This document shows, one piece after another, positions 446-3,676 of a stretch of 55,177 nucleotides of DNA. Origin of the DNA: Candidatus Hydrogenedentota bacterium (lineage in GTDB: Bacteria > Hydrogenedentota > Hydrogenedentia > Hydrogenedentales > CAITNO01). The notes under the pieces were generated by a model. The model was not told the DNA's origin. It saw only the letters and a program-made list of their open reading frames with translations, and searched no databases. The translations under genes were made by a program, and so were the position numbers. Position 1 is the stretch's first letter. Every line of letters starts with the position of its first letter. The DNA lies in assembly GCA_012730045.1 (NCBI GenBank), contig JAAYBR010000042.1, forward strand, positions 1-55,177, given 5' to 3'.

Positions 446-604
446 TCAGGAGATGAGCGGAATGAAGAAGCCGAACGCCGCGGCGGCGAATCCGGAAATG
501 GCGATGATTCCGCCGATGCTCTGATCATAAAGCACGGCGACAAACGCCCCGACTGTCATGGCCAAGAAACCAACCAGTCCGACAATGGAAGCGGCCGTTC
601 CCAT
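446..604 (-). CDS. Small two-helix membrane protein (52 aa)
   Basis: An ATG at 604 is preceded seven bases upstream by a perfect AGGAGG ribosome-binding site, so translation is likely despite the short length. The product is almost entirely hydrophobic. A first helix (residues about 5-25) and a second (about 31-50) are separated by a short LYDQS turn. There is no signal peptide cleavage site and no recognisable domain. It sits between two unrelated genes and may have its own promoter (TATACT on the minus strand at 692-697). The general form resembles small membrane proteins that modulate a larger membrane complex, but no partner can be named. Confidence 0.65.
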   Translation of the reverse strand: MGTAASIVGLVGFLAMTVGAFVAVLYDQSIGGIIAISGFAAAAFGFFIPLIS

Positions 605-755: not shown

Positions 756-1490
756 CTATCCGATGAAGAGCCCTTCCAGGCGGACCTGCCACCCGTCGGG
801 GACGCGGTTGAGATAGTTGAGCAGCCCGCTGTGCCGCCATTGGAGCATGCACAGCCGCGGCTGGAAGTGGTACCGCATGCCGACGCGCAGCTCGCCGCGC
901 GCGCCGGTGACCAGGCCCTCGTAGGCCTCCGCAATGTAGTACCCGATGTCCTTGCATCCCCGCTCCCTGGGAATGAGCGGGCCGGTGACGCACCAGGTGA
1001 TGACGCCCGTCCGCAGTTCAACGGACCTCACCACGCCGCAGTGCGTGATGGGGCAGCCGCAGGACATGCCCAGGGGCCGCCCCATGAGAACGTCCCCCTC
1101 GGCGATCTCCATTTCGCGCGTGATCATCGGGTTGTGGGGGAGAATCACCTCCCGGGGACCCGGGTCTTCCGGGAAGTGCTCGAGGTAGAAATCAAAATCG
1201 CGCCCAAGGCTGTCGCGCCATTCGGCGGGGGAGGGGTCGGCGGGCACGCCCGCCGCCGAGCACCCCGCGCACAGCGGGCCGCACTCGACGGCGCACGCGG
1301 GCTTCGCACCCGCGCCGACGCCGGCGTCGGGGGCCGGCATGACGTCGCCGGACAGGTGAATGCACCGTTTGAGGAGCTCCGGCTCTGTTTGGACCCGGGC
1401 GGCCAGCTCCGCGCAGGTGCGAAACCCGCACACGCCGCAGTTCAGCCCCGGCAGCGCGATGTCCGCCTGCGGTTTCATCGTCTCAGTCAT
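756..1490 (-). CDS. Cysteine-rich Fe-S cluster protein
   Basis: This 244-residue protein opens with LNCGVCGFRTCAEL and a fourth cysteine at LLKRC. The spacing (C-x2-C-x4-C-x~16-C) is that of the 4Fe-4S 'FeS' domain found in corrinoid Fe-S proteins, AcsC-like proteins and RnfB. Two further cysteine clusters follow: CAVECGPLCAGC at about 66-77, and MSCGCPITHCGV near the middle. The C-terminal half, with many aromatic residues, is not recognised. It is the last gene of a minus-strand operon, four bases after the GTPase gene, with GGGGAGAG upstream of the ATG. It has no signal peptide, so it is probably cytoplasmic. A role as cluster carrier or as substrate of the neighbouring nucleotide-driven proteins is inferred. 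Confidence 0.65.
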   Translation of the reverse strand: MTETMKPQADIALPGLNCGVCGFRTCAELAARVQTEPELLKRCIHLSGDVMPAPDAGVGAGAKPACAVECGPLCAGCSAAGVPADPSPAEWRDSLGRDFDFYLEHFPEDPGPREVILPHNPMITREMEIAEGDVLMGRPLGMSCGCPITHCGVVRSVELRTGVITWCVTGPLIPRERGCKDIGYYIAEAYEGLVTGARGELRVGMRYHFQPRLCMLQWRHSGLLNYLNRVPDGWQVRLEGLFIG

Positions 1491-1494
1491 TCTC

Positions 1495-2196
1495 TCACTC
1501 TCCCCGGTAGAAGTTTTGGTTGTTCAGCGCCCGCACGACGCCGAAATGGGACTGCCAGCCGATCTCTTTCTTCCCCACGCAGATGGTGCACGTGCCCACC
1601 GGCGGGTTCCCCCGCAGCATCAACCGCGGCGGCGCGTCGGGCGTCTGAAGGACATGGGCCACCAGCGGGTCAATGCCGATGCCCTGAAGCGCGTTGACCT
1701 CGCGCACGCGGACGGCCGGGGCGGCCTCGGCGATGCGCGCCCGGAGCACCTCGCGCTCCGCCTGCGAGACCAGGTCTATCTTGGTCACCACCGCGATGTC
1801 GGCCAGCGACAGCATGGGGCCGACCTTGCGGGGCAGGTTCATGCCGCTGGTCGCCTCCATGACCATGATGCCCAGGCCGCCGTCGGCGTAGGGGGCGCAC
1901 CGGAGGCAGAGGCCCGCCGTCTCGACCAGCAGGATGTCGGCCGCGGCGTTTTCCGCCCATTTCAGGGCGTCCCCCAGCACCAGCACGCTGCAGTGGTCCG
2001 GACACAGCTCCCCCGAGTACACCGTTTTCGCGGGAATCCCAAACTCCCCCGCGAACAGCTCCTCCTCGTCCGCGAACTGGACGTCAATTTTCAGAAAGGC
2101 CAGGCGGCTTCCCGAGGCCGCCAGTCTCCGGGCCATGTGGCGCAGCACGGCGGTCTTTCCCGTGGTGGCCGGACCCGCGCAGATGACAAGTTTCAT
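1495..2196 (-). CDS. P-loop GTPase, G3E/CooC-like, with paired cysteines
   Basis: The 233-residue protein begins with a P-loop (GPATTGKT, residues 8-15). It has a switch-like ILLVETAG and a TKID motif equivalent to the guanine-specifying NKxD, a layout typical of the SIMIBI/G3E metallochaperone GTPases (HypB, UreG, CobW) and CooC-like maturation factors. Three cysteine pairs are visible: ELCPDHC, GLCLRC and GTCTIC. The last lies near the C-terminus, just before VGKKEIGW. These suggest metal or Fe-S binding. The gene overlaps the upstream ATPase by four bases (ATGA), implying translational coupling. GTP-driven metal or cluster insertion into a partner is the likely role; the metal is unknown. 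Confidence 0.7.
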   Translation of the reverse strand: MKLVICAGPATTGKTAVLRHMARRLAASGSRLAFLKIDVQFADEEELFAGEFGIPAKTVYSGELCPDHCSVLVLGDALKWAENAAADILLVETAGLCLRCAPYADGGLGIMVMEATSGMNLPRKVGPMLSLADIAVVTKIDLVSQAEREVLRARIAEAAPAVRVREVNALQGIGIDPLVAHVLQTPDAPPRLMLRGNPPVGTCTICVGKKEIGWQSHFGVVRALNNQNFYRGE

Positions 2197-3011
2197 TGGA
2201 GGCCCCCTTCCGGCGCCGCGGCAAACGCGGTCAGTTCGGCGAAGTCCCCGTCCCCCAGCTGTCCGCCCATGCGGATGGTTTCGCGCAGGCGGGAAAGGGC
2301 GTCGTCAAGCCGGCTCACCGTCCGCGCGAAGCCGCGCTCCGCCGCGTCCGTGCGGATCACCCGGGTCACGCGGCCGCCCTGCATCACGATGCGGAAGTCG
2401 GAGAGCAGCGCGATCCGCGGATCGTGGGTCACGAAGATGAAGATCTTGCGCCGCTGCCGCAGCAGCTCCAGCGCCCGCGCCCGGTGAATGCCCGCGTTCT
2501 CCACCTCGTCCAGCAGGACAATCGGCGTGTCGCACACCACCGTTGCGTCCGCTATCAGCAGCGCCCGCGTCTGGCCGCCCGACAGCTCCGTCATCCGGCT
2601 CTCCGGGATGATGGGCTCGCCCGTCAGCTGGTTGGCGAAATCCAGCGTCTGGGCCACCAGGCTCTCCGCCCGCGAACTGTCGGCGCACCGTATCCCCGCA
2701 TGGGTGCCCAGGAAAAGGCGCACCGGCATGTCCGACAGGAAATTTGTGTGCTGCGTGATCAGCGCGATCGGGTTGCGGGCCGGGTCGTCGCGGTAGACGG
2801 CCGGCGGCCGCACGCCGTTGATCAGCACCCGCCGTCCCGTCGGGGTGTCATTGTCGGCGAACAGTTCAATGTCATTGATCAGGGTTGTCTTTCCCGACCC
2901 CGTCGGGCCCACGATGCTCACGACATCCCCCATGTTCAGGTCAATGCGCCGGACCGGTTCCGGCACCTCCTGCTTTCCCCTGCCTCCGAGAATGGTGATG
3001 GTTTCGATCAT
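2193..3011 (-). CDS. Stand-alone ABC-type ATPase
   Basis: A complete ABC nucleotide-binding domain of 272 residues: Walker A GPTGSGKT, Q-loop region ITQHTNF, signature LSGGQ, Walker B IVLLDEVE and switch histidine THDP. No transmembrane domain or permease gene is nearby, so it is probably not a conventional transporter. Soluble ABC ATPases also serve in Fe-S assembly (SufC) and in activating methyl-coenzyme M reductase (A2 component). The chosen start is the ATG at 3011, preceded by AAAGGTG. An in-frame TTG 33 bases upstream is possible. The gene overlaps the GTPase gene downstream and lies 70 bases after the Rrf2 gene. Confidence 0.75.
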   Translation of the reverse strand: MIETITILGGRGKQEVPEPVRRIDLNMGDVVSIVGPTGSGKTTLINDIELFADNDTPTGRRVLINGVRPPAVYRDDPARNPIALITQHTNFLSDMPVRLFLGTHAGIRCADSSRAESLVAQTLDFANQLTGEPIIPESRMTELSGGQTRALLIADATVVCDTPIVLLDEVENAGIHRARALELLRQRRKIFIFVTHDPRIALLSDFRIVMQGGRVTRVIRTDAAERGFARTVSRLDDALSRLRETIRMGGQLGDGDFAELTAFAAAPEGGLQ

Positions 3012-3081
3012 AACGGCACCTTTCGCAGTTGTAAACGTTAGCAAATCGCATTAGTCTTGTTAGAGGGCAAAAAAAAGGGGC
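3012..3081 (-). promoter_or_regulatory. Rrf2-ATPase intergenic leader with repeated GTTAG motifs
   Basis: This 70-base gap between the regulator and the ATPase gene is AT-richer than its surroundings. It carries two GTTAG copies around a TTAGTCTTG core (about 3038-3062) and a run of eight A (T on the minus strand) just after the regulator. ACAAGACT here resembles ACAAGTCT in the regulator's own promoter region near 3491-3500, so both could be operator sites for the Rrf2 protein. This is pattern matching only. Confidence 0.3.
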
Positions 3082-3483
3082 TTAGAGCACATCCGCCAGG
3101 GTGGTCTTCTCCAGTTTTTCCGCCACATGGTCCCGAATCTCGCGAAACACGTTCAGCAGCCCTTCCTCCCGTTCAATGGGCGTGGACTCGTAGAAGTACT
3201 TGCTGACCGACTCCGTGGGGGCGAGGGCCCCGTCAAAGAGCCGCACGATCTCGGCCAGGGAAATCTCGCCGGGTTGCCGGGCGAGGCGGTATCCGCCGTG
3301 CTGGCCCTTGGAACTGTGCACATACCGCGACCGCTTCAGCGCAAGCAGAATCTGCTGCAGGAACTTGGGGGGGATGCCCTGTTCCTGCGCGATCGTCTCG
3401 CCGCTGAGGAACGTCTCCGTCGTGTGGCGTGCCAGGCAGAGGAGGGCGAGCAGCGCGTATTCACTTCGGCTTGTCAGTTTCAT
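3082..3483 (-). CDS. Rrf2-family transcriptional regulator
   Basis: At 133 residues this has the usual Rrf2/IscR length. It starts MKLTSRSEYAL and carries the winged helix-turn-helix signature (IAQEQGIPPKFLQQIL, then KGQHGGYRLAR). The region that in IscR, NsrR and RsrR holds three cluster-binding cysteines (after residue 90) here reads ALAPTESVSKYFYESTP and contains none. The only cysteine is near residue 17. It may sense a ligand other than a bound Fe-S cluster, or act as a plain repressor. It leads the operon ending with the Fe-S protein and has a good sigma-70 promoter at 3509-3537. Confidence 0.85.
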   Translation of the reverse strand: MKLTSRSEYALLALLCLARHTTETFLSGETIAQEQGIPPKFLQQILLALKRSRYVHSSKGQHGGYRLARQPGEISLAEIVRLFDGALAPTESVSKYFYESTPIEREEGLLNVFREIRDHVAEKLEKTTLADVL

Positions 3484-3508
3484 GGGTCAATCCAGACTTG
3501 TGCAATAG

Positions 3509-3537
3509 ACTATATCATGTTCCGGAGGGCGGCGCAA
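3509..3537 (-). promoter_or_regulatory. Sigma-70-type promoter for the Rrf2 operon
   Basis: On the minus strand TTGCGC (3537-3532) and TATAGT (3514-3509) are separated by exactly 17 bases, about 25-30 bases upstream of the Rrf2 start codon. AGTCT repeats flanking TTGCACA overlap the -10 and start region and could be an autoregulatory operator. Confidence 0.55.
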
Positions 3538-3598: not shown

Positions 3599-3676
3599 TG
3601 GTCGGGGCGGCCGGATTCGAACCGGCGACTTCCTGCTCCCAAAGCAGGCGCGCTAACCGGACTGCGCCACGCCCCG
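3599..3676 (-). tRNA. tRNA-Pro (UGG)
   Basis: The minus strand folds into a full cloverleaf. The acceptor stem CGGGGCG pairs with CGCCCCG, followed by discriminator A and an encoded CCA. The anticodon stem CCTGC/GCAGG encloses the loop TTTGGGA with anticodon TGG. The T-arm loop is TTCGAAT closed by GCCGG/CCGGC. A 5' cytosine at position 1 is typical of bacterial proline tRNA. No other tRNA gene is seen nearby. Confidence 0.95.

Follow-up and report, generated by a model that had tools for sequence, protein, structure and literature searches.

What might a soluble ABC ATPase, a GTPase and an iron-sulfur (Fe-S) protein do together when their genes form one operon and no permease gene lies among them? 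The question is raised by an operon in the 4.46-Mb genome of a Candidatus Hydrogenedentota bacterium (GCA_012730045.1, here G000), on the minus strand of contig JAAYBR010000042.1 (C42), whose entire 55,177 nucleotides are called the window. The operon encodes an Rrf2-family regulator of 133 aa (rrf2, 3082-3483; PF02082, 114.9 bits), a soluble ABC ATPase of 272 aa (2193-3011; PF00005, 54.8 bits), a G3E-type GTPase of 233 aa (1495-2196; PF02492, 43.5 bits against a cut-off of 20.7) and an Fe-S protein of 244 aa (756-1490; PF04060, 34.5 bits against a cut-off of 23), and all four exceed the curated Pfam cut-offs. We see about an even chance that these genes code for a soluble, ATP- and GTP-driven module that would assemble or repair metalloclusters with sulfur drawn from cysteine. 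This reading is based on the fixed ABC-GTPase-FeS gene order, a NifS-like gene in many copies of the operon, invariant cysteines and histidines, sister modules beside genes for Hcp, VnfD and NifE, and the operators of the operon.

Gene order and distribution of the module

A preliminary description of the window had reported four linked genes of these families, with 70 bp between rrf2 and the ABC gene, an ATGA overlap of the ABC and GTPase genes (2193-2196) and 4 bp between the GTPase and FeS genes (1491-1494), and our coordinates and Pfam assignments agree with it exactly. G+C content by codon position across the four frames is 0.65-0.68, 0.40-0.51 and 0.81-0.89. Among the NCBIfam matches listed, only the general Rrf2 superfamily model was above its cut-off, so current libraries would name these proteins generically. 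The nearest equivalog of the regulator is CymR (71 bits, with 195 required), and the GTPase stays under the equivalog cut-offs of both HypB (44.3 against 121.2 bits) and UreG (29.7 against 204.2 bits).

The nearest relatives of the operon belong to Candidatus Hydrogenedentota, where the order rrf2-ABC-GTPase-FeS is kept on other contigs. Orthologues of the ABC and Fe-S proteins occur in an identical set of 7 of 60 related genomes, the genome of the window and six more whose operon genes are about 61-87% identical to those of the window, and this distribution is patchy even inside one genus. In the public genome collection the GTPase is encoded at 72 loci (64-87% identity) from about 15-18 phyla. 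The hosts include Hydrogenedentota, Chloroflexota, Acidobacteriota, Planctomycetota, Omnitrophota, Pseudomonadota, Myxococcota, Thermodesulfobacteriota, Actinomycetota, Bacillota (Heliobacterium mobile), Verrucomicrobia (Opitutia), Bdellovibrionota, Melainabacteria, Methanoregulaceae and Freyarchaeota, among others. Counting only loci whose contig reaches far enough, the ABC gene lies directly upstream of the GTPase gene at 61 of 63, with a 4-bp overlap at 45, and the FeS gene follows the GTPase gene within 1.7 kb at 50 of 51; one locus (L091) has the ABC and GTPase genes in reversed order. Since rrf2 was found at 36-37 of the 72 loci, the strict minimal operon is the three genes ABC-GTPase-FeS. 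The preliminary description had noted the lack of a permease beside the genes, and none was seen inside the operon at any of the 72 loci, a scope that does not extend to distant permeases. It had also asked for co-occurrence and gene order to be examined, and had named absence of co-occurrence, or a permease in a related operon, as grounds to abandon its reading; neither outcome occurred: in many phyla the families are found together in fixed order, and no operon was seen to include a permease.

In a tree of the GTPases, the type found in the window forms one clade (98/95) in which phyla are intermixed, and this branching suggests transfer between lineages. One intended outgroup of the tree (L135) entered it as a mistranslated sequence, and its position carries no meaning. 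A search of the open literature, with subscription journals outside its scope, gave no matching description of the module. A combination of an ABC ATPase with a G3E GTPase was likewise not described in the accessible portion of a review of NTPase metallochaperones (PMC9164220).

A fifth member of the operon, absent from the preliminary description along with any link to sulfur assimilation, is a homologue of the NifS-like cysteine desulfurases, present at 41 of the 72 loci. The gene occupies about 1.17 kb, typically between the GTPase and FeS genes, and its best NCBIfam match is NifS (494.8 bits). At no fewer than 25 of 51 loci it sits strictly between the GTPase and FeS genes, a minimum figure given the over-extension of several start codons. 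In Pararhodospirillum oryzae (L064, 1093-2781), a Family 2A encapsulin cargo cysteine desulfurase is encoded beside Mar-like nitrogenase-like genes and an operon of the window type.

Conserved residues and sister modules

The ABC protein has all the motifs expected of its superfamily, each of them conserved: Walker A (GPTGSGKT), Q-loop (Q87), LSGGQ, Walker B (LLDE), D-loop (ENAG) and H-loop (H196). The GTPase carries a P-loop (GPATTGKT), a G3 motif (ETAG) with the glutamate that marks the G3E family and a G4 motif (TKID), but not the CxCC motif of COG0523. Its CPDH motif (C65-H68) aligns with the nickel-binding CPH motif of UreG as a variant of it, which would make it a putative metal site. 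No variation occurs among 68 GTPase sequences at C65, H68, C97, C100, C203, C206 and H217. The GTPase thus resembles UreG and HypB in its G3E motifs and Cys-Pro-His-type motif, with a profile match to UreG (4hi0, E 6e-6), but it differs from them in having CPDH in place of CPH, in the extra pairs C97/C100 and C203/C206, in its separate clade and in the lack of urease or hydrogenase genes beside it. The PF04060 domain of the Fe-S protein contains the four-cysteine motif CxxC-x4-C-x16-C (C18, C21, C26 and C43), kept in 63 of 63 sequences, and is predicted to bind a 4Fe-4S cluster. C144, C146, C151, H119 and H150 of its C-terminal domain are equally invariant (63/63), and C167, C214 and H220 nearly so; this domain is beta-rich and confidently modelled by AlphaFold.

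Homologous ABC-GTPase pairs that share about 35-53% identity with the proteins of the window form two further sister groups in the GTPase tree. Like the operon of the window they have no permease in the module, but their third component differs and neither an Rrf2 nor a NifS match is adjacent. The short-FeS type, a paralogous second module represented by Heliobacterium mobile (L137, 7720-9875) and other Bacillota (L170-L179 and L199-L201), has a shorter Fe-S partner of about 30% identity. Its neighbours vary (IscU-like, Mrp/ApbC-like, FeoB and oxidoreductases, named by eye), and IscU-like genes lie near two copies.

The other sister type came to light through a plasmid search whose one distant match was a Fusobacterium record. 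Here the third partner resembles solute-binding proteins (SBP_bac_6-like), with a DUF1858 domain added in Fusobacterium, and the SBP-like, GTPase and ABC genes again occur without a permease in Bacillota (L180-L185) and Fusobacterium vincentii (L118). A gene for the hybrid-cluster protein (Hcp) is found near the module in all six of these Bacillota loci; the Hcp of L180 scores 837 bits against the hydroxylamine reductase model, and the gene lies 34 bp (L185) and 55 bp (L184) downstream of the ABC gene. The SBP-GTPase-ABC genes of L180-L185 and L118 are candidate Hcp maturation genes. The same set neighbours vnfD in Rhodoblastus and Pararhodospirillum, and Pararhodospirillum has another copy close to nifE (L138, L139, L140). 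These neighbourhoods link the sister modules to enzymes and scaffolds of complex Fe-S clusters (Hcp, VnfD and NifE), as far as gene position can indicate. Most of L180-L185 also carry a Crp/Fnr-like regulator. Further SBP-like/GTPase/ABC variants in Bacillota (L186, L190, L191 and L195) occur with class I methyltransferases, and several of them are beside iron/cobalamin-type ABC importers, as judged by eye.

More tentatively, and with the doubt leaning against it, these modules may be an undescribed class of metallocluster machines, in which an ABC ATPase and a G3E GTPase stay permanently paired and an exchangeable third partner, FeS or SBP-like, fits them to different clients. The clients would be Hcp in Clostridia and Fusobacteria, nitrogenases in purple bacteria and a sulfur-related enzyme for the type of the window. 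Little is known, to our knowledge, of how complex Fe-S cofactors, the hybrid cluster of Hcp among them, are assembled. A widespread and compact module with two NTPases, invariant putative metal residues and sisters beside Hcp and nitrogenase genes is a testable candidate for a part in making them, and its cultivated hosts include Heliobacterium mobile, Rhodoblastus sphagnicola, Pararhodospirillum oryzae and Geotalea toluenoxydans.

Candidate functions and client enzymes

If the operon does encode a metallocluster module, its conserved core would be the two NTPases, with the ABC ATPase joined to a metal-binding GTPase of the G3E type, and the Fe-S protein would be a partner that could hold, carry or reduce a cluster or its precursor. 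Sulfur would be supplied by a cysteine desulfurase, encoded in the operon in many genomes and presumably elsewhere in Hydrogenedentes. The GTPase would then handle metal in a GTP-gated manner and the ABC dimer would change conformation with ATP, so as to load or restore the cluster on an apo-enzyme coded elsewhere. Motifs, operators, neighbouring genes and the order and conservation of the operon genes are observed directly; we infer cluster handling, formation of a complex and the direction of regulation from sequence and gene context. The preliminary description had likewise proposed a module for metallocluster assembly or reactivation; the CPDH motif, the cysteine and histidine sets of the Fe-S protein, the desulfurase and the sister modules beside Hcp and nitrogenase genes favour the metallocluster part of that proposal, but do not establish assembly or reactivation itself.

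There are precedents for parts of such a module. The SUF system (SufC with SufB/D, and SufS) shares with it a soluble ABC ATPase, a cysteine desulfurase, an Rrf2-type regulator and the lack of a permease, but the operon in the window has no SufB/SufD-type scaffold (PF01458) and has instead a G3E GTPase and a PF04060 protein. In the activation complex of methyl-coenzyme M reductase, too, a soluble ABC ATPase and its Fe-S partners use ATP for work on a metallocofactor. We know of no G3E GTPase in that complex. Its ABC ATPase, called A2, acts together with partner proteins (PMC12176620), and the likeness is one of description rather than sequence; the window module, moreover, occurs in bacteria. 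If the proposed function is true, the module would be one more soluble system in which an ABC ATPase cooperates with a G3E GTPase.

Several results weigh against the metallocluster reading, most of them from the search for a client. The Fe-S protein model gave no fold match to solved structures at E <= 0.001. The preliminary description had expected phylogenetic distribution to reveal the client, and several enzyme families were compared between the 7 operon-bearing genomes (G000, G003, G013, G015, G016, G031 and G036) and the 53 without the operon, but no client emerged. Nitrogenase-like genes (PF00148) are present in none of the seven, G000 included; among the relatives without the operon, two have them above cut-off and a third below it. 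Neither Hcp/CODH (5/7 with the operon, 43/53 without) nor sulfite/nitrite reductase (3/7 and 37/53) is associated with the operon, and HcyBio was found in 0 of the 60 genomes. NiFe-hydrogenase is missing from G000, G003, G013 and G016. FeFe-hydrogenase is present in all seven, but six genomes from other groups that carry the operon lack it. Single absences are soft because some genomes are incomplete (G013 82%, G016 88%), and agreement of G000 (97% complete) and G003 (98%) is a firmer basis. Nitrogenase-like enzymes, both hydrogenases and HcyBio were thus rejected as obligatory clients, being absent from operon-bearing genomes, and no client was found among the families tested. The module does not replace SUF either: full SufB/D genes occur in G000 (on contig C114), G015, G031 and G036, with weak or fragmentary matches in G003, G013 and G016, and since G000 has a full SUF system, the module does not serve as its general Fe-S machinery. 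Lastly, recurrent neighbours of the 72 loci are confined to sulfur amino acid metabolism (cysK at 11, metY at 7, cysE at 3, metX/metW at 3 and sat at 1), and point to cysteine and methionine metabolism rather than to one metalloenzyme.

Such neighbours lead to the possibility that the NTPases and the Fe-S protein move cysteine sulfur, and not a finished cluster, into sulfur assimilation or thiolation when cysteine is limiting. The desulfurase at more than half of the loci, a regulator without cluster cysteines that is closest to CymR, and sulfonate-type ABC genes and Mar genes near some of the 72 loci would all suit this proposal. Cysteine and methionine genes occur near about 15 of the 72 loci against 1 of 37 sister-module loci (cysK/metY), an enrichment that is only indicative, as no significance test applies to comparison loci from other organisms. 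We nevertheless consider it unlikely, since the need for a metal-binding GTPase is not obvious, the Hydrogenedentes operons have neither a desulfurase nor sulfur neighbours, and the sister modules accompany Hcp and nitrogenase genes instead of sulfur genes. The UreG-like CPDH motif and G3E features of the GTPase would also agree with metal homeostasis or delivery of a single metal (Ni, Co or Zn) in the manner of UreG, HypB or COG0523, the ABC ATPase being accessory. The absence of CxCC and of NiFe-hydrogenase in G000 (no search for urease was made in the genomes) makes this less likely again, and an ABC ATPase is not known to belong to UreG/HypB systems, in agreement with the accessible portion of the review (PMC9164220).

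Two more explanations are based on particular neighbours or matches. Maturation of methylthio-alkane reductase (Mar), or of another nitrogenase relative, would fit the reported heliobacterial MarDK (PMC9147875) and the methyl-sulfur gene clusters described elsewhere (PMC10418091). The operon of Heliobacterium mobile (L076) is surrounded by two pairs of nitrogenase-like D/K genes together with MetY and an MtaA-like gene, and in Pararhodospirillum (L064) it is near Mar-like D/K genes. However, nitrogenase-like genes are within reach at only these 2 of the 72 loci, both relatives with PF00148 above cut-off are without the operon, and the lack of PF00148 in all seven operon-bearing Hydrogenedentes excludes such maturation as a general function or obligatory client in the lineage of the window; we regard it as very improbable. 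Least probable of all is an ordinary transporter, with the ATPase paired to a permease coded elsewhere: the ABC protein finds its best NCBIfam matches among transporter ATPases, but they fall far under cut-off (51 against 245 bits for the best among the matches listed), no permease was seen in the operon at any of the 72 loci, and the ABC gene is held in a fixed overlap with the GTPase gene.

Regulation and flanking features

Under the metallocluster reading, the Rrf2 protein would act as a repressor of the operon and of its own promoter by way of two IscR-like sites. One, CCAGACTTGTGCAATAGACTATA (3492-3514, plus strand; 15.8 bits), overlaps the rrf2 promoter, which points to autorepression, and the other, CAAGACTAATGCGATTTGCTAAC (3037-3059, minus strand; 16.3 bits), lies in the rrf2-ABC gap. 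The preliminary description had spoken of one good promoter. A -35/-10 pair, TTGCGC-17-TATAGT, does precede rrf2 by inspection, but a consensus scan places its single sigma-70-like site in the rrf2-ABC gap, before the ABC gene (TTTACA-17-TATGAT, 3035-3007, minus strand; a consensus match only).

Both operators are instances of a 23-bp IscR-like motif, consensus TCCGACTAATCCGATAGGATAAG, that precedes rrf2 and ABC genes and scores above 9 bits in 70 of 105 regions; shuffled regions reach 9.2 bits at the 95th percentile and 13.0 at the 99th, so that scores near 9 are weak. The sites at 3037-3059 and 3492-3514 ranked best and second in the 55-kb window in both trainings. When no Hydrogenedentes sites were used in training they scored 12.7 and 12.0 bits, against 10.4 for the next window site. 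With at most one mismatch, only one place in the whole G000 genome, the 3037-3059 site of the operon, matches the Hydrogenedentes operator pattern, and a search of four genomes for a further regulon returned only the operons and matches at control level. The one site common to G013 and G016 falls within the last part of a coding frame. With the pattern confined to the operon, the regulator seems to act locally, on one operon, and its regulon does not reveal the client.

The window Rrf2 is similar to IscR and CymR in its Rrf2 fold, its IscR-like palindromic operators and its cysteine/sulfur context, but it differs from them in appearing to regulate one operon and in its lack of cluster-ligand cysteines. 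Of the three such residues expected of an IscR-type protein it could supply at most one, C16, its only cysteine, and no cysteine column is conserved in 36 sequences of the family, which makes an IscR-like Fe-S cluster unlikely. The protein is probably tuned to cysteine or sulfur status and not to a cluster of its own.

Downstream of the FeS gene, an open reading frame at 446-604 (minus strand) could code for a 52-aa hydrophobic protein, for which no match was found in loci L021-L099. On the other side of the operon, directly upstream of the rrf2 promoter, is a gene for tRNA-Pro (TGG) at 3599-3676 on the minus strand.

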